From contig NZ_KI632511.1 in assembly GCF_000504285.1 (NCBI RefSeq), positions 3,407,372 to 3,471,371 of the forward strand: 64,000 nucleotides of DNA, written 5' to 3'. The notes below the pieces were generated by a model that saw only the letters and a list, made by a program, of their open reading frames with translations, had not been told where the DNA came from and ran no database searches. Source of the DNA: Actinospica robiniae DSM 44927. GTDB lineage: Bacteria; Actinomycetota; Actinomycetes; Streptomycetales; Catenulisporaceae. Numbering within the stretch: the first letter of the stretch is position 1; every line of letters begins with the position of its first letter. The translations under genes and the position numbers were made by a program. Below are positions 23,783-33,783 of the stretch, one piece after another.

Positions 23783-23834
23783 CAACGCATGTTAGCCAAC
23801 GCGCGTTGACATTCGGCCGCCGGGCGATCTAGCG
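23783..23834 (+). promoter_or_regulatory. TetR operators and overlapping promoter of the stress-domain/NDH-2 operon
   Basis: CAACGCGCGTTG at 23797-23808 is a perfect 12 bp palindrome and CAACGCATGTTA at 23783-23794 is a near copy 14 bp upstream. The perfect copy overlaps the -35 box TTGACA (23806-23811), which a 17 bp spacer separates from TAGCGT (23829-23834). A repressor bound here would block RNA polymerase. The binding protein is inferred to be the adjacent TetR regulator. Confidence 0.7.
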
Positions 23835-23872
23835 TGGTCGGCGAGAACACCGGCAACCCGGGGAAGGCCGCG

Positions 23873-25336
23873 ATGAGCGCACCAGCAGCAACCACGACCA
23901 GCACGACCGGAGCCAGAGCGAGGTTCCGGCCGCACGCGGTCTTCGTCGCGGCCATGACGCTGTTCGCGGCCGTCTTCGTCGCGATGGTCCTCAGCGAGTT
24001 CCACGCGCCGAGCCCGCACGCCCTGCCGGTCGGCATCGTCGCGCCCGCCTCCGCGGCCGGCCAGGTCGGCCAGGCGCTGCAGCACGCCGCGCCGGGCGGG
24101 TTCGACCTGCACACCTACGGCAGCCTCGCGGCGGCCCGCGCCGGGATCACGCAGGGCCAGGTCGACGGCGCCCTGATCGATTCCTCCGGCGGGATGCAGC
24201 TGCTGCTGGCCCCGGCGGCGGGCACCGCCCCGACACAGGCGCTGACCAGCGCGTTCACCGCGATCGCGGAGCACACCGGGCAGAGCCTGGCGGTCACCGA
24301 CGTGGTCGCGCCCGGGTCCGCGGACACGCTGGGGCTCTCGCCCTTCTTCCTCGTGCTCGGGGTGCTCATCCCGAGCGTCGCGGTCGGATCGGCCTCGGCG
24401 CTGGTCTTCCGCCGGGCCCGGCGGGCGTGGTGGTTCGGCGCGCCGGTCCTGGCCGCCGCGGCGATCGGCCTGGCCACCGCCGCGATCGCGGACGGGGTCT
24501 CCGGGCTGGGGAACTACCCGGCGCTGGCCGGCATCGTCGCGCTGTTCTCGCTGGCGGTGGCGGCTCCGACCGCGGCCCTGGCGCGGATCCGGCCGCCGCT
24601 CTCGGCGCTGGCCGTGCTGGCGTTCGTGGTCTTCGGGCTCCCCGCCAGCGGCGGCCCGTCCGGGCTCGGCCCGTTCGGCCCGAGCTTCCTGCGCGACCTC
24701 AACCCGGCGCTGCCGCTCGGGCTCGCCGCCTCGGCCGTGCGCAAGACGGTCTACTTCGGCGGCTACGGCACAGCCGGGCCGCTGTGGACGCTGGCGGCCT
24801 GGGCGGGCGGGGGCCTCCTCGTGCTCGCGCTGGTCGCGGCGCGGCGGCGGGCGTCCGTGCCGGGCCAGCCGCTCCAGACCGCGCTCCCGCCGCGCGCTCC
24901 CTCCGGCGTCGTCGTCGGTTTCGACGACTCCGAGCCGTCCCGCCGCGCGCTAGCCCAGGCCGCTCGCCTGGCCACGGCACGGCACGAACCCCTGCACGTC
25001 GTGTACGCCGACCACGTGGTGCTCGACAGCGACCTGGCCGGCTACGCCCACGCCGAGATCGAGACCGCCCGGGACGAGACCGCGGAGGCGATCGCCGCGG
25101 CGGCCACCGCGATCGTCGGGGAAACCGGCGAAGCAGGCATCGATTACACCTTCGTACGCCGGCAGGGCGCGCCCACCGACGCGATCCTGGCCGCGGCCGC
25201 CGACCTCGCCGCCCAGAGCGAATCAGACCCCGTCATCATCGTGGGCCGCTCCGGACACGCCGCGCACCGGCTCCTCGGCTCGGTACCCACTCACCTCTTG
25301 GCCCGGTCGCCCTTCCCAGTGCTGGCCATAGCCTGA
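23873..25336 (+). CDS. Multipass membrane protein fused to a C-terminal universal stress (UspA) domain
   Basis: 487 residues from ATG 23873 (GGGAAGG at 23861). Residues 1-340 look like a YhgE/ABC-2-type membrane part: helix at about 22-42, an extracytoplasmic domain of about 110 residues, then five helices (LGLSPFFLVLGVLIPSVAVG, WFGAPVLAAAAIGLATAAI, LAGIVALFSLAVAA, LSALAVLAFVVFGLP, LWTLAAWAGGGLLVLALVAA). Residues about 344-487 are a universal stress protein domain (GVVVGFDDSEPSRRAL, the HVVYADHV strand and VGRSGHAAHRLLGSV...PFPVLAIA, which fits the ATP-binding G-x2-G-x9-G-S type loop). The combination suggests ATP- or stress-dependent control of a membrane process. The NDH-2 gene follows 47 bp later, probably in the same operon. 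Confidence 0.8.
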   Translation: MSAPAATTTSTTGARARFRPHAVFVAAMTLFAAVFVAMVLSEFHAPSPHALPVGIVAPASAAGQVGQALQHAAPGGFDLHTYGSLAAARAGITQGQVDGALIDSSGGMQLLLAPAAGTAPTQALTSAFTAIAEHTGQSLAVTDVVAPGSADTLGLSPFFLVLGVLIPSVAVGSASALVFRRARRAWWFGAPVLAAAAIGLATAAIADGVSGLGNYPALAGIVALFSLAVAAPTAALARIRPPLSALAVLAFVVFGLPASGGPSGLGPFGPSFLRDLNPALPLGLAASAVRKTVYFGGYGTAGPLWTLAAWAGGGLLVLALVAARRRASVPGQPLQTALPPRAPSGVVVGFDDSEPSRRALAQAARLATARHEPLHVVYADHVVLDSDLAGYAHAEIETARDETAEAIAAAATAIVGETGEAGIDYTFVRRQGAPTDAILAAAADLAAQSESDPVIIVGRSGHAAHRLLGSVPTHLLARSPFPVLAIA

Positions 25337-25383
25337 CCCGTCACCCGGTCCGACCATCGGACCGTCGGAAAGCAGAGAGAACC

Positions 25384-26754
25384 ATGCGCGAGATCCTGAT
25401 CGTCGGCGGCGGCTATGCGGGCTTTTACACCGCGTGGGGCCTCGAGAAGAAGCTGCGTCCCGAGGAGGCCAGGGTCACGGTCGTCGATCCGCGCCCCTAC
25501 ATGACCTACCAGCCGTTCCTGCCGGAGGTGACCGCCGGCTCGGTGGAGGCGCGGCACGCCGCCGTGTCGCTGCGGCGGCATCTGCACCGGACCCGGCTGA
25601 TCGCGGGGACCGTGACGGAGATACGCCACGCGGACCACAGCGTCACCGTGCGGATGACGAACGGCACCGACTACCGGCTCGAGTACGACATCGTCGTCGT
25701 CACCGCCGGCGCGGTGACCCGCACCTTCCCGATCCCGGGCGTGGCGCAGCAGGCGATCGGCCTGAAGCACGTGGAGGAGGCCGTCGCGATTCGCGACAGG
25801 TTCCTGACGGCGTGCGACCAGGCGGCTTCGCTGCCTCCGGGCCCGGAACGGCGAAAGCTGCTGACCGTCACGTACGTGGGCGGCGGGTTCTCCGGCGTCG
25901 AGGGGTTCGCCGAGCTGCTGTCGCTGGCGTCCTCGATCCCGAAGTACTATCCGGGGATTCGTTTCGACGAGTTCTCCTTCCACCTCGTCGAAGCCCGCGA
26001 CCGCATCCTGCCCGAGGTGAGCGCGAAGCCCGGCGCGTGGGTGGTGCGCTCCCTGCGCCGGCGCGGCGGCCAGGTGCATCTCAACACTCAGCTCGTCTCC
26101 GCCGAGGACGGCCACATCGTGCTCTCCGACGGGCAGGAGTTCGACTCGGCCCTGCTCGTGTGGGCTGCGGGCAACGCCTCCAACCCGGTGGTGCGCACGC
26201 ACACGGACCTGCCGGTCGACGAGCGCGGCCTGGTCGTGGTCCGGGCCGACCTCAGGGTCGGCACCGAGCGAGACCTCGTCCCGGGCGCGTGGGCGGCCGG
26301 GGACGACGCGGCCGTGCCCGACCTTGCTTCGAAGGTGCCGGGAGCGCACACCGTGCCGAACGCTCAGCACGCGGTGCGCCAGGGCCGGCGCCTGGCCAAG
26401 AACCTCGTCGCCGAGCTGCGCGGAGGCACGATCCGCGACTACCGCCACCGGAGCCTCGGCACGGTGGCCGCGCTCGGGCTGGGCAAGGGCGTCTTCCAGT
26501 ACAAGAAGCTGGTGATCAAGGGCCTGCCGGCCTGGCTGATGCACCGCGGGTACCACGTGCTGGCCGTGCCGTCCTGGGAGCGCAAGGTGCGGGTCCTCTC
26601 GATCTGGCTCACCGCCGCCTTCTTCGGGCGCGACCTGGTCTCGCTGGCCTCGGTGCAGCGCCCCCGGGAGGCGTTCGTGGCGGGCGCCGCGCCGAACGTG
26701 GTGCACGCCGGCACGGGCGGGGAGCCTCAGCCGGCCGCCGCCGAAGCCGCGTAA
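25384..26754 (+). CDS. NAD(P)/FAD-dependent oxidoreductase, type II NADH dehydrogenase-like
   Basis: 456 residues. Two dinucleotide-binding motifs are clear: FAD site ILIVGGGYAGFYTA at residues 4-17 and NAD(P)H site VTYVGGGFSGVEGFAEL near 163. They are joined by VVTAGAVTRTFPIPG, with a C-terminal FAD-contacting ATGD-equivalent (GAWAAGDDAAVPD). After AQHAVRQGRRLAKNL comes the NDH-2-type amphipathic membrane-binding tail (LGTVAALGLGKG...WLMHRGYHVLAVPSWERKVRVLSIWL). NDH-2 enzymes pass electrons from NADH to quinone without proton pumping, and I infer that role here. The gene lies in the TetR-controlled operon after the stress-domain membrane protein. Its 3' end overlaps the convergent sigma factor gene by 28 bp. 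Confidence 0.88.
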   Translation: MREILIVGGGYAGFYTAWGLEKKLRPEEARVTVVDPRPYMTYQPFLPEVTAGSVEARHAAVSLRRHLHRTRLIAGTVTEIRHADHSVTVRMTNGTDYRLEYDIVVVTAGAVTRTFPIPGVAQQAIGLKHVEEAVAIRDRFLTACDQAASLPPGPERRKLLTVTYVGGGFSGVEGFAELLSLASSIPKYYPGIRFDEFSFHLVEARDRILPEVSAKPGAWVVRSLRRRGGQVHLNTQLVSAEDGHIVLSDGQEFDSALLVWAAGNASNPVVRTHTDLPVDERGLVVVRADLRVGTERDLVPGAWAAGDDAAVPDLASKVPGAHTVPNAQHAVRQGRRLAKNLVAELRGGTIRDYRHRSLGTVAALGLGKGVFQYKKLVIKGLPAWLMHRGYHVLAVPSWERKVRVLSIWLTAAFFGRDLVSLASVQRPREAFVAGAAPNVVHAGTGGEPQPAAAEAA

Positions 26755-27626
26755 CGGGCGAGCTTGTCGGGGTTGAGCACCCACAGCAGCCGCTCGATCC
26801 CGCGCTCGGACACGTCCGCGGTCAGCAGCGCCACCGCCGCTCCCTCGACCGTGACCAGGACGGCCGGCCGGCCGTTCGCCTCGACCCAGCGAACCTCGGT
26901 CGGCGGCCAGAAGCGCGGGGCGAAGGCGACGAGGTACCGGGCCACCCGGGTGCGCCCGACCACCGGGATCCGGGAGGCGCCGCGCACCCCGCCGCCGTCG
27001 GCGTAGCTGACCACGTCCTGGGTGAGGACCTTTTCGAGTTCTGACATATCTCCGGCCTGCGCCGCGCCGAGGAATGCTTTCAGCAGGCGCCGGTGCGTCC
27101 GGGAGTCGACGGCCTGCCGGCGTTCCTCGGCCAGGCGTTTGCGGGCCCGGCTCGCCAGCTGGCGGGTATTCGCCTCGCTCGTCTCGAGCATTTCCGCGAT
27201 CCGCGCATAAGGGTAATCAAAGGCTTCGCGCAATACGTACGCGGCGCGTTCCACCGGATTCAGTTTCTCCAGCAGGAAGAGCACTGCGAGATCGAGCGCC
27301 TCGGCCCGCTCCGCGCCGAGCTGCGGATCCGCGCCGGTGTCGACCGGCTCCGGGATCCAGGGCCCGATGTAGGACTCCCGGCGCGCCGCGGCGGACTGGG
27401 CCGCGTTGATCGCCAGCCGGGTGGTGACCGTGGCCAGGAACGCGGCCGGCTCGCGGATGTCGGCGCGCTCCGCGTTCTGCCAGCGCAGCCAGGACTCCTG
27501 GACCACGTCCTCCGCCTCGACCGCGCTGCCGAGGATCCGGTAGGCGATGCCGAAGAGCCGCGGCCGCGCGGCCTCGAAATCCCGCACGGCCCGGTCGAGT
27601 GATTCTTCATTACCATCAGTATTCAT
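26727..27626 (-). CDS. ECF41-type sigma factor with fused SnoaL-like regulatory domain
   Basis: 299 residues from ATG 27626 (GAAGGA 5 bases upstream). Region 2: RLFGIAYRILGSAVEAEDVV. Region 4: LNPVERAAYVLREAFDYPYA and the helix-turn-helix ARIAEMLETSEANTRQLASR. The hallmarks of group ECF41 are present: linker motif WIPEP, a SnoaL-like C-terminal extension with YADGGG, and the terminal NPDKL. In this group the extension replaces a separate anti-sigma factor and modulates activity; that is known for the family. ECF41 genes normally sit beside the oxidoreductase, epimerase or decarboxylase gene they control. Here the divergent neighbour at 27789 is a flavoprotein with an ECF41-like promoter. Confidence 0.92.
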   Translation of the reverse strand: MNTDGNEESLDRAVRDFEAARPRLFGIAYRILGSAVEAEDVVQESWLRWQNAERADIREPAAFLATVTTRLAINAAQSAAARRESYIGPWIPEPVDTGADPQLGAERAEALDLAVLFLLEKLNPVERAAYVLREAFDYPYARIAEMLETSEANTRQLASRARKRLAEERRQAVDSRTHRRLLKAFLGAAQAGDMSELEKVLTQDVVSYADGGGVRGASRIPVVGRTRVARYLVAFAPRFWPPTEVRWVEANGRPAVLVTVEGAAVALLTADVSERGIERLLWVLNPDKLARYAASAAAG

Positions 27627-27726
27627 ACATATCCTTCGCACTCGCGCACTATGTTACAAGTCGCCGCGGCGGGGAAAGCGCAGGCGTACATCCCCGATGT
27701 GTGCTGCGTCACACGTGCGGGATTCC

Positions 27727-27753
27727 TGTCACAGATCACTGGCCTGTCCGGTC
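27727..27753 (+). promoter_or_regulatory. Candidate ECF41-dependent promoter of the flavoprotein gene
   Basis: TGTCACA at 27727-27733 is the -35 element known for ECF41 sigma factors. After 16 bp comes GGTC (27750-27753), one mismatch from the family -10 CGTC. Transcription would start about 30 bp before ATG 27789. No second TGTCACA is visible upstream of the other genes in this block. The match is seen directly; use by the sigma factor at 26727 is inferred. Confidence 0.6.
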
Positions 27754-27788
27754 TTAGTGAACGACAAACCCCGCGATCGGAGTACACC

Positions 27789-29519
27789 ATGGCCATCACC
27801 GAGAAGAGCCTGTCCACCCTCGTGCTGGTGATCGGCACCGGCGGTTCGGGGCTGCGCGCGGCGATCGAGCTGGCCGAGGCCGGCGTCGACGTCCTCGCGG
27901 TCGGCAAGCGCCCGAAGCAGGACGCGCACACGGCGTTGGCCGCCGGCGGCATCAACGCGGCCCTGGCCACCATGGACCCCGAGGACAGCTGGCAGCAGCA
28001 CGCCGCCGACACGCTCAAGGAGAGCTACCTGCTGGCCGACCCGCGCACCGTCCAGATCGTCTCCCAGGGCGCCGCGCAGGGCATCGACGACCTGGAGCGC
28101 TACGGCATGGCCTTCGCCCGGGAGCAGGACGGCCGGATCTCCCAGCGCTTCTTCGGCGCGCACAAGTTCCGCCGGACGGCGTTCGCCGGGGACTACACCG
28201 GGCTGGAGATCCAGCGCGCGCTGATCAGGCGGGCCGAGCAGCTGGAGATCCCGGTGCTCGAGGGCGTCTACATCACCCGGTTGCTGGTCGAGGACGGCGC
28301 CGTGTTCGGCGCCTACGGCTTCGACCTCGCCGAGGGCACCCGCTACCTGATCCACGCCGACGCGGTCATCCTCGCCACCGGCGGCCACACCCGGATCTGG
28401 CGGCGCACCTCCTCGCGCCGCGACGAGAACATCGGCGACTCGTTCCGCCTGGCCGTGGACGCGGGAGCGCGCCTGCGCGACCCCGAGCTGGTGCAGTTCC
28501 ACCCCTCCGGGATCATCGAGCCGGAGAACGCGGCGGGCACGCTGGTCAGCGAGGCGGCGCGGGGAGAGGGCGGCATCCTGCGCAACGCCGAGGGCGAGCG
28601 GTTCATGAGCCGCTACGACCCCGCCCGGATGGAGCTGTCCACCCGGGACCGCGTCGCGCTGGCCTCCTACACCGAGATCAAGGAGGGGCGCGGCACGCCG
28701 AAGGGCGGAGTGTGGCTGGACGTCTCCCACCTGCCGCGGCAGACGATCATGACGCGGCTCCCCCGCGTGTACCAGACCATGCTCGACCTGCAGATGCTCG
28801 ACATCACGCGCGATCCGATCGAGATCGCGCCCACCGCGCACTACTCGATGGGCGGAGTGTGGGTGCGTCCGGAGGACCACAGCACGGAGGTGCGCGGCCT
28901 CTACGCCATCGGCGAAGCCGCCAGCGGCCTGCACGGCGCCAACCGGCTCGGCGGGAACAGCCTCATCGAGCTGATGGTCTTCGGCCGCATCACCGGTCAG
29001 GCGGCCGCCGCCTACTCGCGGTCGCTCACCGCCCAGCCCCGCTCGGCCGCGGCGATCGAGCAGGCCCGCGCGGAGATCGACGATCTCCTCGCCGCGGACG
29101 GCCCGGAGAACGTGCGCGCGCTGCAACGCGCGATCCGCAACACGATGACCGAGCACGCGGGCGTCGTCCGGGACGAGCAGGGCCTGCGCGCCGGGCTGGC
29201 CGAACTCGCCGCGATCGAGCGCCGGATGCGCGACGTCGGCGTGCACCCGGACATCGCCGGCTTCCAGGACCTCGCCCACGCCTTCGACCTCAAGTCCGCG
29301 GCCCTCGCGGCCAGGGCCACCCTCGAGGCGGCGCTGGAGCGCCGGGAGACCCGCGGCTGCCACAATCGCAGCGACTACCCCGAGCTGGACCCCGCGCTGC
29401 AGGTCAACCTCGTGTGGTCGCCGACGAGCGGCGTCAGCCGGGAGGGCATCCCGGGCATCCCGGCCGAGATCTCCGCGCTGATGGAAGAGGTCTCCACCGA
29501 GGGGAAGCTGGCGGAATGA
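27789..29519 (+). CDS. Stand-alone fumarate reductase/succinate dehydrogenase-type flavoprotein
   Basis: 576 residues from ATG 27789. FAD-binding LVIGTGGSGLRAAIELAEAG lies at about 12-31. The segment DAHTALAAGGINAAL keeps the histidine that in SdhA/FrdA binds FAD covalently. Active-site signatures follow: QFHPSGI, EAARGEGG, AHYSMGGVWV, YAIGEAASGLHGANRLGGNSL, then the C-terminal helical domain ending in RETRGCHNRSDYPE, which carries an active-site Arg. L-aspartate oxidases lack the histidine, so I favour the Sdh/Frd type. No iron-sulfur or membrane-anchor subunit is nearby, so the electron partner is unclear. It is the probable direct target of the adjacent ECF41 sigma factor. Confidence 0.88.
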   Translation: MAITEKSLSTLVLVIGTGGSGLRAAIELAEAGVDVLAVGKRPKQDAHTALAAGGINAALATMDPEDSWQQHAADTLKESYLLADPRTVQIVSQGAAQGIDDLERYGMAFAREQDGRISQRFFGAHKFRRTAFAGDYTGLEIQRALIRRAEQLEIPVLEGVYITRLLVEDGAVFGAYGFDLAEGTRYLIHADAVILATGGHTRIWRRTSSRRDENIGDSFRLAVDAGARLRDPELVQFHPSGIIEPENAAGTLVSEAARGEGGILRNAEGERFMSRYDPARMELSTRDRVALASYTEIKEGRGTPKGGVWLDVSHLPRQTIMTRLPRVYQTMLDLQMLDITRDPIEIAPTAHYSMGGVWVRPEDHSTEVRGLYAIGEAASGLHGANRLGGNSLIELMVFGRITGQAAAAYSRSLTAQPRSAAAIEQARAEIDDLLAADGPENVRALQRAIRNTMTEHAGVVRDEQGLRAGLAELAAIERRMRDVGVHPDIAGFQDLAHAFDLKSAALAARATLEAALERRETRGCHNRSDYPELDPALQVNLVWSPTSGVSREGIPGIPAEISALMEEVSTEGKLAE

Positions 29520-29695
29520 CCCGGCCGGCCCAGCCGCGGACGCCTCGCGGCGTCGAGCCGCCATCCGGGTGAAACTCCGGCATGCGGGCGCCTGCCCACG
29601 ACCATAGGTTGATGAGTGAGGCCGGCAACGAGCTGCGGGGGCAGCACGGCCGCATCGCCCACGGCCGGTCTCCCGACGATTCGACAGGAGAAGTC

Positions 29696-30526
29696 ATGGG
29701 ATTCGTCACCACACGCGACGGAACAGAGATCTTCTACAAGGACTGGGGCACCGGCACGCCCGTCGTCTTCAGCCACGGCTGGCCGCTGAACGCGGACATC
29801 TGGGACGACCAGCTCAACCTGCTGGCCGAGAACGGATACCGCGCCATCGCGCACGACCGGCGCGGGCACGGCCGCTCCAGCCAGCCGTGGCAGGGCAATG
29901 ACATGGACACCTACGCCGACGATCTCGGGGCCGTGCTCGACGCCCTGGACCTGCGCGGCGCCGTGCTGGTCGGGCACTCGACCGGCGGCGGCGAGGTGAC
30001 GCACTACATCGGCCGGCACGGCACCGACCGGGTCTCGAAGGTGGTGCTGGTCAGCGCCGTCCCGCCGCTGCTGATCAAGACGGACGCGAACCCCGACGGC
30101 CTGCCGATGCAGGTGTTCGACGAGATCCGGGCCGGGCTGCGGGCCGAGCGCGCCCAGTACTGGCAGGACACCGCCGTGCCCTTCTTCGGCGCCAACCGCC
30201 CCGGCAGCAAGGCCACCCAGGGCAACAAGGACACGTTCTTCCTGCAGGCCATGCAGCTGAACCTGAAGGGCTCGCTGGACTGCGTCAAGGCCTTCTCCGA
30301 GGTCGACATGACCGAGGATCTCAAGGGCTTCGGCGACGTCCCGGCCCTGCTCATCCACGGCGACGACGACCAGATCGTGCCGATCGACGCCTCCGCGAAG
30401 AAGTCGGTCAAGCTCATCCCGCACGCCACGCTGAAGATCTACGAGGGCGCGCCGCACGGGCTGACCGTCGTCCCCGGATTCAAGGAGCGGTTCAACGAGG
30501 ACTTGATGGACTTCCTCAAGAGCTGA
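29696..30526 (+). CDS. Alpha/beta hydrolase, non-heme chloroperoxidase type
   Basis: 276 residues from ATG 29696 (CAGGAG 5 bases upstream). The family pattern is nearly complete: [17 protein letters not shown], oxyanion segment [13 protein letters not shown], nucleophile elbow GHSTGG, the acid in [11 protein letters not shown], and the base in GAPHGLT. Cofactor-free haloperoxidase/esterase enzymes of this kind act on esters or perform perhydrolysis. The physiological substrate is unknown. It starts the run hydrolase-cupin-NmrA after the flavoprotein and may belong to the same stress regulon. It is 177 bp past the flavoprotein stop, so it is possibly under a separate promoter. Confidence 0.9.
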
Positions 30527-30565
30527 GCCGCCGACCCGCCCCCCGAGAAGGAGAGCATCAACACC

Positions 30566-30997
30566 TTGAACGCCCAGCACGCGCACCACATCCCGAGCCC
30601 GGACGGGGCCGCGCCGCCCCGGATCGAGACGGTCGCCACCGTGACGCACCCGTCGCCGCTGCCGGAGGGCGCGGAGGCGATGACCATCCTGGTCACGCTC
30701 CCGCCGGGCTCGCCGGGCCTGCCGCCGCACCGCCACAGCGGCCCGTGCTACGGCTACGTGCTCGAGGGCGAGATGCTCTTCGAACTCGAAGGCGAGCCGG
30801 AACGGGTCGTCAAGGCCGGCGAGGCCTTCTACGAGCCCGGCTACGACGTCATCCACTATCAGGACGCGAACAACCTCGCGGACGCCGAGACCCGCTTCCT
30901 CGTCACCATGTTCTGCGCGGCCGGACGGCCGATGATCGTCCCGGTCAGCGCGGAGGAGCTGGAGGCGCGCCGCGACCGCCGCGCGCCCCGGCCGTGA
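30566..30997 (+). CDS. Cupin-domain protein
   Basis: 143 residues from a TTG start at 30566, with GAAGGAGAG about 10 bases upstream. A single cupin barrel: motif 1 LPPHRHSGPCYGYVLEGEML (H-x-H and the distal Glu region) and motif 2 GEAFYEPGYDVIHYQDANN. A metal centre is likely. Small cupins of this type are sensors or dioxygenase-like enzymes; the reaction is unknown. It lies 39 bp after the hydrolase stop and 85 bp before the NmrA-like gene, so the three are probably cotranscribed. Confidence 0.85.
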   Translation: MNAQHAHHIPSPDGAAPPRIETVATVTHPSPLPEGAEAMTILVTLPPGSPGLPPHRHSGPCYGYVLEGEMLFELEGEPERVVKAGEAFYEPGYDVIHYQDANNLADAETRFLVTMFCAAGRPMIVPVSAEELEARRDRRAPRP

Positions 30998-31082
30998 CGA
31001 GGCGGCACCGCCTGCGGCCGGCCGACCGGCCATCAGCAGGTATCGCATATCAGGGACGGATGTCCCGAGTAGAGGAGTACTC

Positions 31083-31826
31083 ATGAAAATCGCCGTCATC
31101 GGCACCGGCCTCATCGGCTCCCAGGTGGTGGACCGGCTCACCGCGGCCGGGCACGACGCGAAGGGGCACTCGCTGTCCACCGGCGTCGATCTGCTCACCG
31201 GCAGCGGGCTCGACGGAGCGCTGCGCGACGCCGAGGCCGTCGTGAACGTGTCCAACTCGCCGACCTTCGACAAGGCCTCGGTCGAGTTCTTCCGCAAGTC
31301 GGTGACCAACCTGCTGGCGGCCGCGCAGGCGGCGGGCGTGCGGCACATCGTGACGCTCTCCATCGTCGGCGCCGAGCTGGTCCCGGCGCTCGACTACTAC
31401 GGCGCCAAGGTGCTCCAGGAGGACCTGGTCAAGGCCGGGCCCGTGCCCTACTCGATCGTGCGCGCCACGCAGTTCATGGAGTTCGTCGCGCCGACCATGC
31501 AGTGGACCACCGAGGGCGACGCGGTGCACCTGCCGCCGACCCCGATCCAGCCGATCAGCTCGGCGGACGTCGCGCAGGCCGTCGTGGAGACCACCGTCGG
31601 CGCTCCGCTGCAGGGCACCCGGAACATCGGCGGCCCCGAGGTCTTCCAGCTCGACGAGCTGGGCCGGATCACGCTGGCCGAGACCGGCGACACCAAGCGC
31701 CAGGTGGTGACCGACGAGAAGGCCGGGCTCTTCGCCGCGGTCGAGGGTGACGCGATCACGACGCGCGAGGGCGCCGAGCTCGCCACGACCCGCTACCGCG
31801 ACTGGCTGAAGGCGCAGTCGCACTGA
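31083..31826 (+). CDS. NmrA-like atypical short-chain dehydrogenase (NAD(P)-binding)
   Basis: 247 residues from ATG 31083, preceded by GAGGAG. The N-terminal nucleotide site is IAVIGTGLIGSQVVDRL, with GxGxxG spacing. SIVGAELVPALDYYGAKVLQEDLV carries Tyr and Lys at the position of the SDR pair, and YSIVRATQFMEF is the usual NmrA substrate-loop segment. Such proteins are NAD(P)H-sensing regulators or quinone/sugar epimerase-like enzymes. A 19 bp stem follows (31833-31880), so this is the last gene of its transcript. An epimerase-like neighbour is typical of ECF41 loci. Confidence 0.88.
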   Translation: MKIAVIGTGLIGSQVVDRLTAAGHDAKGHSLSTGVDLLTGSGLDGALRDAEAVVNVSNSPTFDKASVEFFRKSVTNLLAAAQAAGVRHIVTLSIVGAELVPALDYYGAKVLQEDLVKAGPVPYSIVRATQFMEFVAPTMQWTTEGDAVHLPPTPIQPISSADVAQAVVETTVGAPLQGTRNIGGPEVFQLDELGRITLAETGDTKRQVVTDEKAGLFAAVEGDAITTREGAELATTRYRDWLKAQSH

Positions 31827-31832
31827 CCCCCG

Positions 31833-31880
31833 GCCTCGGCCGGACCGTCCGCCGACGGCGTCGGACGGTCCGGCCGAGGC
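31833..31880 (+). terminator. Strong hairpin terminator after the NmrA-like gene
   Basis: Bases 31833-31851 and 31862-31880 form a perfect 19 bp stem (GCCTCGGCCGG... against ...CCGGCCGAGGC) with a 10 base loop, 6 bp after the stop codon. No T tract follows. Confidence 0.7.
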
Positions 31881-31974
31881 GGGCACCAGGCTCGCCGCGT
31901 GCAGGCCGGTCGGCTTTGTACAAGACTGGACACGCAAGGAGCATCGCGCGACCCCCGTTGGACAGGTGAGGATC

Positions 31975-33783
31975 ATGGCGCCGACCTTGACCGGCCACGA
32001 CGGCACCCCGGTGGTTTTCCTCCACGGCCTGTGGCTGCATCCGACCTCGTGGAGAGCGTGGGAGGAGCTGTACCAGGCGAACGGCTACCGGACCGTCGCG
32101 CCGGGCTGGCCCGGCGTCCCGGACACCGTCGAGGGCACCCGGGCGGATCCGAACGTCGTCGCCGATCCGGGTATCGACCAGATCACCCGCCACTACGCCC
32201 GGATCATCGCGGAGCTGCCCGAGCCGCCGGTGCTGATCGGCCACTCCGTCGGCGGGTTGATCGCGCAGAAGCTGCTGGCCATGGGGTACGGGCGCGCGGC
32301 GGTCGCCATCGACGCCGCGCAGTTCAAGGGGGTGATGCCGGCCACGCCCACCTCGCTCAAGGCCGCGATGCCGATCCTGCGCAACCCGTCGAACCGGCAC
32401 AAGGCGGTGTCGCTGACCCCCGCCCAGTTCCGCTACGCCTTCGGCAACTCGCTGACCGAACAGGAATCGGACGCGCTGTACGAGCAGTGGGCGGTCCCCG
32501 CTCCCGCGCGCCCGCTGTTCGAGGCCACGTCGTCCAACCTCGCCCGGCACACGGCAGCCGCCGTGGACGCGGAGAGCGAGGTGCGACGGCCGCTGCTGCT
32601 CGTGATGGGCGGCGAGGACCACGCCGTGCCGGAGGCCGTCACCAGGTCCGCGTACCGGTTCTACCGCGATTCCGCCGAGGCCGACCTGATGGAGTTCCCC
32701 GACCGCGGTCACTCGCTGATCATCGACAGCGGCTGGCGGGAGATCGCCGAGGCTTGCCTGGACTGGCTCGGGAAGCACGTCCCGGCCGGCACCGAAGACG
32801 AAACCGCCGAGGCCGCGGCGACGCCCGCGGCGCGCCCGGCCGCCGTGACCGAGCGGCAGCCCTGGCCCACGCCGCCGCGCGCGAGCGCGCCCCCGTACAC
32901 GCCTGGCCCGGCACCCGAGCCGGAGGGCGACGAGGTGCTCATCGAGGTCCGGTGCGCCGGCATCGGCGACTGGGACGACGTCACCCGCGCGGGCGGTTGG
33001 CAGAGCGGGGTGGCCGAGCTGTGCGCGCTCGGGGTGCAGGTGGCGGGCACGGTGATCAAGGCCGGGCCGGAGACCGAGGGGTTCGCTCCGGGGACCGAGG
33101 TGCTGACCCACACGTATCCGCTGAAGGGCAGCGGAGCCCGGACCCGGCGCGTCCTCGCACCCAGCGCCCACGTGGCGCTCAAGCCCGCCGGGCTGACGTG
33201 GCAGAACGCGGCCGCCCTGCCGCTGCCCGGGCTGACCGCGTACGAGTTGCTCTTCGAGGTCCTGAAGGTGCGCCCGAATGAGACGCTGCTCGTCCACGGG
33301 GCGGAAGGGATCATCGGCGGACTGCTGGTGCAGATCGCCTCGGCGCACGGTCTGGACGTCGTGGCGACCTCCGAGCCGGACTGCACCACCCAGGTGTCCG
33401 CGCTGGGTGCGGCCGCGGTCCTCGACCGGGACGACCCCGACTGGCCGGAAGAAGCCCGCCGGCTGTTCGGCGGCCGCGGTGCCGACGCGGCGGCCGTGGC
33501 CACGTCCGGCGGCGCCGGCACCGCGCTGTCCGTGGTCACCGACCACGGACGGATGACGACCATCGCGGATCCCACGCCGCCGGACCCCGAGCGCGGCATC
33601 GAACCGCGCTACATCCGGGTGCATCCGGACGGCGAGCTGCTCGGCCGGGCGGCCCACGCGCTCGACCGCGGCGAGATCGTCATGCCGGAGCCGGCCGCCT
33701 TCGCCATGGCCGACATCGACCAGGCGCTGGCGACGCTGCTGGCCGGCAGCGGGCAGACGCCGGTCGTGCTGAGCGCCGCGTGA
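31975..33783 (+). CDS. Fusion of an alpha/beta hydrolase and a zinc-free MDR (quinone oxidoreductase-like) domain
   Basis: 602 residues in one frame. Residues 1-275: alpha/beta hydrolase with VVFLHGLWLHPTSW, nucleophile elbow GHSVGG, acid near MGGEDHAVP and base in DRGHSLI. A Pro/Ala-rich linker (about 280-325) leads to an MDR domain: GDEVLIEVRCAGIGDWDDV, LALGVQVAGTVIKAG-like core, AALPLPGLTAYELLF, and the NAD(P)H site VHGAEGIIGGLLVQIA. No structural zinc cysteines are present. The fusion suggests one enzyme hydrolysing an ester and reducing the released product, or vice versa. The ATG at 31975 is my choice; GTG 31966 is an alternative. Confidence 0.85.
   Translation: MAPTLTGHDGTPVVFLHGLWLHPTSWRAWEELYQANGYRTVAPGWPGVPDTVEGTRADPNVVADPGIDQITRHYARIIAELPEPPVLIGHSVGGLIAQKLLAMGYGRAAVAIDAAQFKGVMPATPTSLKAAMPILRNPSNRHKAVSLTPAQFRYAFGNSLTEQESDALYEQWAVPAPARPLFEATSSNLARHTAAAVDAESEVRRPLLLVMGGEDHAVPEAVTRSAYRFYRDSAEADLMEFPDRGHSLIIDSGWREIAEACLDWLGKHVPAGTEDETAEAAATPAARPAAVTERQPWPTPPRASAPPYTPGPAPEPEGDEVLIEVRCAGIGDWDDVTRAGGWQSGVAELCALGVQVAGTVIKAGPETEGFAPGTEVLTHTYPLKGSGARTRRVLAPSAHVALKPAGLTWQNAAALPLPGLTAYELLFEVLKVRPNETLLVHGAEGIIGGLLVQIASAHGLDVVATSEPDCTTQVSALGAAAVLDRDDPDWPEEARRLFGGRGADAAAVATSGGAGTALSVVTDHGRMTTIADPTPPDPERGIEPRYIRVHPDGELLGRAAHALDRGEIVMPEPAAFAMADIDQALATLLAGSGQTPVVLSAA

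Follow-up and report, generated by a model that had tools for sequence, protein, structure and literature searches.

The central finding of this analysis is a conserved ECF41-type promoter in the genome of Actinospica robiniae DSM 44927, situated between the divergent genes for an ECF41 sigma factor (26727..27641, minus strand, 304 amino acids (aa)) and a stand-alone SdhA/FrdA-like flavoprotein (27789..29519, plus strand, 576 aa). Both genes lie in the 64-kb stretch that we analysed and refer to as the window (G000:C1:3407372-3471371 of a 9.92-Mb genome). The promoter, TGTCACA-N16-GGTC at 27727..27753 on the plus strand, lies 62 nt ahead of the flavoprotein ATG; it was absent from the original prediction of a stress module around this sigma factor and represents the strongest evidence for the link between the two genes. 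From the comparisons described below, we consider this regulatory link strongly supported, and recognition of the site by the sigma factor is very probable. TGTCACA-N14-17-SGTC matched just once in the 64 kb, with 17 of 100 shuffled sequences containing at least one match, and resampling of the window's dinucleotides gives an expectation of 0.0004 per 250 nt for a perfect score of 11 of 11 bases (first -10 base C, G or T; spacer 15–17). The published form, TGTCACA followed at a spacing of 14–18 by CGTC, had zero matches in the window. As the site emerged only once GGTC was allowed, the argument is carried by conservation and not by the relaxed pattern. Within the window, the site at the flavoprotein gene is the only convincing one: the region upstream of the ECF41 gene itself holds a 9-of-11 near-match with a spacer of 15, and no sigma-70-type promoters were predicted in 25200-32100.

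Assignment of the sigma factor to ECF41, originally based on motifs, was borne out by a score of 349.4 bits against the TIGR02957 SigX4 model of NCBIfam (cut-off 323.25), by the Pfam domains Sigma70_r2 and Sigma70_r4_2 for sigma2 and sigma4, and by the presence in the translation of GPWIPEP (the WIPEP linker), DGGG, and NPDKL, the protein ending in a SnoaL-like C-terminal extension. The closest solved structure is that of M. tuberculosis SigJ, matching residues 18–293 with the extension included, and no anti-sigma domain was found in the ten window proteins scanned. The characteristics of ECF41 systems are hence present, with the exception of the -10 element. ECF41 factors are thought to be gated by their C-terminal domain, with the NPDKL end touching the linker (PMC7730460, PMC8999054). 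In a quick tree of 66 ECF41-family proteins, the deeper joins of which depend on long branches, the window sigma factor fell among 50 flavoprotein-linked rows from Streptomyces, one Nocardiopsis, and Catenulispora-type genomes (Shimodaira–Hasegawa-like approximate likelihood ratio support of 99), and away from ten further ECF41-like proteins (33–43% identity) encoded in the same genome. Three flavoprotein-linked rows were placed elsewhere, namely the second copies at loci L060 and L075 as well as L101.

Conservation of the promoter was assessed at the loci of the closest 80 of 577 confirmed flavoprotein relatives (82–91% identity) and in ten stretches from kin genomes, a sample of mutually non-independent loci that stops short of divergent flavoprotein loci. 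Duplicates L119 and L124 were dropped to leave 88 counted loci. Gene calling relied on a simple script, which overlooked the flavoprotein of L109 and may have placed starts too far upstream, and a site was scored when at least 9 of 11 bases matched within 250 nt of the flavoprotein gene. This comparison of ECF41 neighbourhoods, which the original prediction had proposed as a check, showed that a site precedes the flavoprotein gene at 43 of 43 loci with an ECF41-cluster gene and without a LysR-cluster gene, in 38 of them at -60 to -64, versus 0 of 29 loci with a LysR-cluster gene, mostly from Microbacteriaceae, 28 of which have it directly divergent from the flavoprotein gene. Counted as LysR loci are also L101 and L102, which carry an extra ECF41-family gene (34–40% identity) and no site, and L086, where the LysR-cluster gene lies away from the flavoprotein. 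Sites were likewise found at 12 of the 16 loci assigned to neither regulator, although at least one of these, L051, does hold an ECF41 gene. In the LysR-type copies among L082-L118 (28 loci), the flavoprotein (82–85% identity) stands alone and divergent from the LysR gene. Judged from such gene arrangements, one enzyme is placed under two regulator types, ECF41 and LysR. The 50 flavoprotein sites with a spacer of exactly 16 comprise 48 distinct 15-nt spacer sequences with a mean pairwise identity of 48%, the -10 elements being CGGTC (31), TGGTC (13), CTGTC (5), and TTGTC (1); the site is thus retained while the DNA between its two parts varies.

At these loci the promoter is by no means confined to the flavoprotein gene. 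The 43 ECF41 loci (698 kb) contain 224 TGTCACA-N16-[CGT]GTC sites, with 0–4 sites at each spacer of 13–15 and 17–22 and with 10, 31, and 7 matches at spacers 10, 11, and 12, respectively, which we read as the inner TGTC of spacer-16 sites. Such sites number 42 at the 16 other loci and zero at the 29 LysR loci (468 kb). Expressed differently, 224 of the 279 TGTCACA words in the ECF41 loci have this -10 element at exactly 16 nt, and about 40 permuted -35 words gave at most 2 matches each. Of the 266 sites, 228 are intergenic or no more than 90 nt from the start of a called gene, although some 80% of the DNA concerned counts as coding; for 40 of the 266, no called gene could be assigned. G predominates as first -10 base (G 200, T 22, C 2, A 2), by which the group departs from the CGTC consensus.

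Since the 9-of-11 level is also reached by 102 of 791 unrelated genes in the neighbourhoods, gene classes, whose domain names derive from single scanned members, were counted by exact spacer-16 sites only. Sites number 50 for 87 flavoprotein genes, 29 for 48 NmrA, 20 for 88 ECF41-cluster, 13 for 17 CMD/AhpD-like, 12 for 15 ferredoxin-reductase-like, 11 for 13 cupin, 9 for 11 ferredoxin, 8 for 14 and 5 for 9 OsmC, 8 for 14 NDH-2, 7 for 8 WhiB, and 5 for 11 cytochrome b genes, compared with 12 for 549 genes without a cluster; YceI (0 of 10) and LysR (0 of 29) genes lack a site even at the 9-of-11 level. Promoters ahead of ferredoxin, ferredoxin reductase, NDH-2, cytochrome b, OsmC/AhpD-type, and WhiB genes suggest a rerouting of electrons under redox or electrophile stress, and a redox-stress role appears plausible to us.

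The association also holds at the level of whole genomes. An order-level survey of 147 genomes identified 22 with the flavoprotein (E up to 1e-150), all 22 of which encode a close ECF41 homologue (E up to 1e-75) versus 15 of 125 negative genomes (Fisher p 1e-16); the latter show that the sigma gene can occur without the flavoprotein. TGTCACA-N15-YKGTC sites amount to a median of 13 per genome (range 1–27) in the positives and of 1 (maximum 6) in the 125 negatives, with at least 7 sites in 15 of 22 versus 0 of 125 genomes, while a reversed-pattern control gave a mean of 0.2–0.3 in positives and negatives alike. In flavoprotein-negative genome G075, four identical matches (C1, positions 275962, 3981004, 5560765, and 5614726) are probably copies of a repeated element. 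At the level of the class, the flavoprotein family was found in 26 of 296 genomes (E up to 1e-200). In Streptomyces-type genomes, the sites cluster in islands of 35–63 kb, where they precede ferredoxin, NDH-2, cytochrome b, WhiB, OsmC, AhpD-like, and NmrA genes: 17 of 31 sites fall within 48 kb in G031, with 10 more in a second 35-kb stretch, 12 of 23 within 36 kb in G018, and 22 of 27 YKGTC sites within 63 kb of the 7.5-Mb chromosome of G095. The G095 island also contains pyruvate dehydrogenase E1 and lipoyl acyltransferase genes (L219:6392-10553; G095:C1:939391-943552) with no assigned sites of their own. The flavoprotein locus itself accounts for only 3 of 9 sites in G017 and 2 of 17 in G003. 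In seven genomes with large contigs, the distance from this locus to the nearer end is about 0.74–1.19 Mb, compared with 3.4 Mb in the genome of the window and 2.4 Mb in G003, several of the lengths being rounded and G082 and G102 being split into several contigs.

Turning to the window, the flavoprotein gene is followed in the same direction and after gaps of 176, 39, and 85 nt by genes for a cofactor-free haloperoxidase/arylesterase-type alpha/beta hydrolase (29696..30526), a cupin (30566..30997), and an NmrA-like NAD(P)-binding protein (31083..31826). This run had been proposed from the sequence together with the sigma factor and the flavoprotein, and it is indeed there, all of its genes, like the others listed for the window, being intact frames; Pfam supports the cupin (Cupin_2) and the NmrA-like protein (NmrA/NAD_binding_10), and the hydrolase, previously described as a peroxidase-type enzyme without cofactor, shows full-length similarity (residues 4–275) to bromoperoxidase A1 (389.9 bits) and chloroperoxidase F (381.4 bits), placing it by sequence in the bromoperoxidase A1/non-heme chloroperoxidase family with a correspondingly predicted activity. 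On the other side of the sigma gene, an NDH-2-type NADH dehydrogenase gene (25384..26754, plus strand; Pyr_redox_2 and NDH-2 structure matches) converges with the ECF41 gene, the two overlapping tail-to-tail by 28 bases (26727-26754). The gene at 23834..25336 (plus strand), 47 nt before the NDH-2 gene, encodes a fusion of a membrane part with weak YhgE/Pip similarity and a universal stress protein domain. The hydrolase-MDR fusion that had been counted among the module's members exists according to its Pfam domains, yet at 31966..33783 (plus strand), beyond the 26727-31826 region for which it had been claimed; we rejected it as a member, its upstream 8-of-11 near-match being at chance level and only one weak relative being present in 90 loci. 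Co-regulation of the window NDH-2 gene was not sustained either, given a single 9-of-11 near-match at spacer 17. The proposed sigma-controlled redox module therefore stands in part, with strong comparative backing from the dedicated promoter, gene co-occurrence, and sites ahead of electron-transfer and peroxide/thiol genes in relatives, and without the fusion and the NDH-2 gene of the window.

How far control extends beyond the flavoprotein gene separates the preferred reading, an ECF41-driven flavoprotein with a downstream redox set, from an ordinary ECF41 pair of the published type, in which only the adjacent oxidoreductase gene is a target and hydrolase, cupin, NmrA, and NDH-2 genes are unrelated neighbours. 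Wecke et al. 2012 concluded that ECF41 factors generally control a single gene or operon (PMC3426412), and the genome of the window, with one clear site in the window, three YKGTC sites, and around ten spacer-16 sites overall, is at the poor end of the range. Sites inspected there include one before an NmrA-like gene beside another ECF41 gene, one before an ECF41 gene, and one before a small gene, and the remainder look like chance; with so few real-looking sites and no excess of the pattern, we claim no island for this genome. Against the ordinary pair, cupin, NmrA, and NDH-2 families recur near the flavoprotein in relatives and have their own sites there (an NDH-2 gene is present at 15 of 90 loci), and in the window the downstream genes follow in the same orientation at short distances; the two terminator-like sites predicted in 25200-32100 are both on the minus strand and represent no excess over shuffles, the plus strand having none. 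We regard the ordinary pair as rather unlikely, and transcription of the hydrolase, cupin, and NmrA genes together with the flavoprotein gene by read-through as fairly probable. For this organism, one can safely claim that the flavoprotein gene is controlled and, as a possibility, that the three downstream genes are as well.

As to the flavoprotein itself, Pfam assigns FAD_binding_2 and Succ_DH_flav_C. The predicted combination of a histidine for covalent flavin adenine dinucleotide (FAD) with the lack of an iron–sulfur subunit gene held up. An alignment of 22 proteins, including seven SdhA, shows no variation at His47 (codon 27927-27929, plus strand), His238, Glu255, Arg286, His351, or Arg386; we take His47 to be the covalent-FAD position and the other residues to form the succinate/fumarate active site. 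SdhB gave no match in the window or in 90 flavoprotein loci when queried with two host-genome sequences and one sequence from G017, positive controls having passed for all three. At the LysR loci no other widely recurring gene was found, apart from a serine dehydratase-like cluster in eight, which argues for a one-component enzyme. The structure model (mean predicted local distance difference test score, pLDDT, of 79.6) aligns over its full length with the SdhA of M. smegmatis Sdh1 (7d6v; TM 0.87/0.84) as best fold match, a result that led us to abandon the suggestion that the C-terminus is shortened. The protein is most likely a single-component dicarboxylate oxidoreductase with predicted covalent attachment of FAD and succinate/fumarate-type chemistry; from its sequence it would work like a succinate dehydrogenase, fumarate reductase, or NadB, yet it qualifies as none of them. 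For covalent FAD, the substrate, and the electron partner, we see the balance as about even. In six of the 22 positive genomes there are second flavoprotein copies (55–69% identity); in the two whose residues were checked, both in islands, Gln replaces His351 (L127, G031:C1:333758-335473; L128, G033:C55:57404-59050), and L128 is also altered in the SEAARGEGG stretch.

The label ‘fumarate reductase’ would be misleading if the protein were an oxidase or reductase for another substrate, be it NadB-like, oxygen-using, or acting on an unsaturated acid. In line with this, a 51-row tree places it in a clade of its own (100/100) on a long stem beside two SdhA types and NadB-like proteins from the same genomes (some SdhA rows lack the first residues, and the NadB label of the host paralogues is our assignment), Ser occupies position 254 next to Glu255 where Thr would be usual, and none of the 25 best among 51 listed NCBIfam models reaches its cut-off, the curated nadB model scoring 354.6 bits versus 452.75. 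The histidines, Glu, and arginines that we associate with the succinate/fumarate site are, however, retained, and the nearest fold is that of the Sdh1 SdhA, so that we rate this alternative slightly below the ordinary pair, as unlikely. Clearly less probable still is that the protein acts as alternative SdhA and shares a housekeeping SdhB with the regular succinate dehydrogenases: two SdhB genes do occur elsewhere in the host genome and the model aligns full-length to Sdh1 SdhA, but none of the 90 loci has an SdhB gene beside the flavoprotein, which forms a separate clade with a long stem. An accidental neighbourhood, for which differing gene orders around the flavoprotein between genomes could be quoted, is scarcely credible in view of site conservation with its LysR contrast and of the promoter and co-occurrence statistics, the chance of an ECF41 start within 1.2 kb of the flavoprotein being about 0.0024 for 10 full-length ECF41 genes in 9.9 Mb.

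The mechanism that we envisage starts with the SnoaL-like domain restraining the sigma factor until a signal arrives. Freed ECF41 would then direct RNA polymerase to the site at 27727-27753, giving transcription of the divergent flavoprotein gene, probably as one unit with the hydrolase, cupin, and NmrA genes, whose products might constitute a redox or electrophile defence set. The electron partner of the flavoprotein may be a general carrier (ferredoxin, flavin, oxygen, or quinone) instead of an SdhB subunit, and in relatives the same promoter ahead of many separate genes would create a regulon island. Genes, promoter, conservation, co-occurrence, residues, and SdhB absence were computed directly; the steps past the presence of the promoter are our interpretation. 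Several observations speak against this scheme. The -10 element is GGTC and not the published CGTC, albeit with exact -35 element and spacer; hydrolase and cupin genes of the window have no site of their own and the NmrA gene only a chance-level match; 4 of the 16 loci with neither regulator have no site; and TGTCACA-N10-22-BGTC occurs 35 times in the own genome versus 32 for the reversed control, 9 of these 35 having a spacer of 16 and the window site figuring among the 35 with a shorter spacer only. The redox flavour of the genes stems from annotation only, covalent FAD and substrate are predicted assignments, and the model is at its weakest in the loop bearing the covalent-FAD histidine (42-57; pLDDT <50). 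A general peroxide role is further disfavoured by R. sphaeroides and B. licheniformis mutants reported without oxidant phenotype (PMC3426412). Weighing all this, we hold the ECF41-driven flavoprotein with its downstream redox set to be the best explanation as a whole, with a confidence just above the midpoint.

Reading of the ECF41-cluster members revealed about 24 of 88 (18 of them aligned) to be degenerate paralogues, such as L220:3148-4044 (minus strand), L217:6302-7174, L048:13264-14106, and L042:16547-17458 (plus strand), which retain the SnoaL part with DGGGK and NPDKL but have lost the sigma2.3-2.4 region and the WLPEP linker; a structure model of one was confident in part only. Short SnoaL-only proteins of 98–153 aa with NPDKL occur at L122, L126, L044 (12582-13043), and L077 (17401-17697), and an ECF41-type site was found at 13 of these 28 genes. 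Both kinds of protein may act in trans on the true ECF41. A more far-reaching picture, which we put forward as doubtful, would be a distinct ECF41 clade whose -10 preference has shifted to YKGTC. It would rule islands in which up to about 20 redox genes each have a promoter of their own, with pseudo-sigma paralogues that bear the promoter and stray SnoaL domains adjusting it in trans, and its hallmark would be a complex-II-like flavoprotein that stands alone, is equipped for covalent FAD, and could in principle be bidirectional.

An ECF41 gene next to an FAD_binding_2 oxidoreductase gene is not new in itself. Wecke et al. 2012 list FAD_binding_2 among the oxidoreductases beside ECF41 genes, describe TGTCACA-N16-CGTC before the gene adjoining the ECF41 sigma gene, include TGTC and TGTT forms among the candidate promoters of their Table 5, and give the divergent ‘<ECF< >COE>’ arrangement as one class (55 of 373) (PMC3426412). 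The present system shares with these ECF41-COE systems the sigma factor with fused C-terminal domain, the absence of an obvious anti-sigma gene, and a divergent oxidoreductase with a TGTCACA-N16 promoter, but differs in its GGTC/TGTC -10 element and in the dozens of separately promoted genes in relatives where one target has been published (PMC3426412). SigG1/ECF56 of Streptomyces tsukubaensis is likewise a SnoaL_2-fused ECF sigma factor with a WhiB-type gene among its targets, but belongs to another ECF group, without NPDKL and with the anti-sigma protein RsfG (PMC7730460). With SdhA/FrdA of complex II, the flavoprotein has fold, covalent-FAD histidine position, and catalytic residues in common, but there is no nearby SdhB or membrane subunit gene, it forms its own clade, and it stays below the listed equivalog cut-offs. 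Soluble fumarate reductases and L-aspartate oxidase are single-component SdhA relatives, too, but carry non-covalent FAD and are unable to oxidise succinate, which makes a stand-alone protein with the covalent-FAD histidine unusual (PMC9557727). A literature search on soluble fumarate reductases in actinobacteria returned nothing, and no ECF41 regulon of this kind appeared in the literature searched, which included passages of PMC3426412, PMC9205884, PMC8999054, PMC7730460, and PMC8103513, with subscription journals mostly outside its coverage.

ECF41 is a large ECF group with a role known in few cases: an M. tuberculosis sigJ mutant is described as slightly peroxide-sensitive (cited in PMC3426412), ECF41 has been linked to motility and lateral flagella in Azospirillum (reference in PMC8999054), and the one broad ECF41 study reports single targets and, in two species, no phenotype that could be reproduced (PMC3426412). 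Islands with dozens of predicted Streptomyces promoters, LysR-linked copies as a natural negative control, and a defined -10 variant make the role of one ECF41 clade and its promoter code testable. A flavoprotein that stands alone and yet has the covalent-FAD histidine would, moreover, blur the line between complex II, with covalent FAD and several subunits, and its soluble relatives with non-covalent FAD (PMC9557727).

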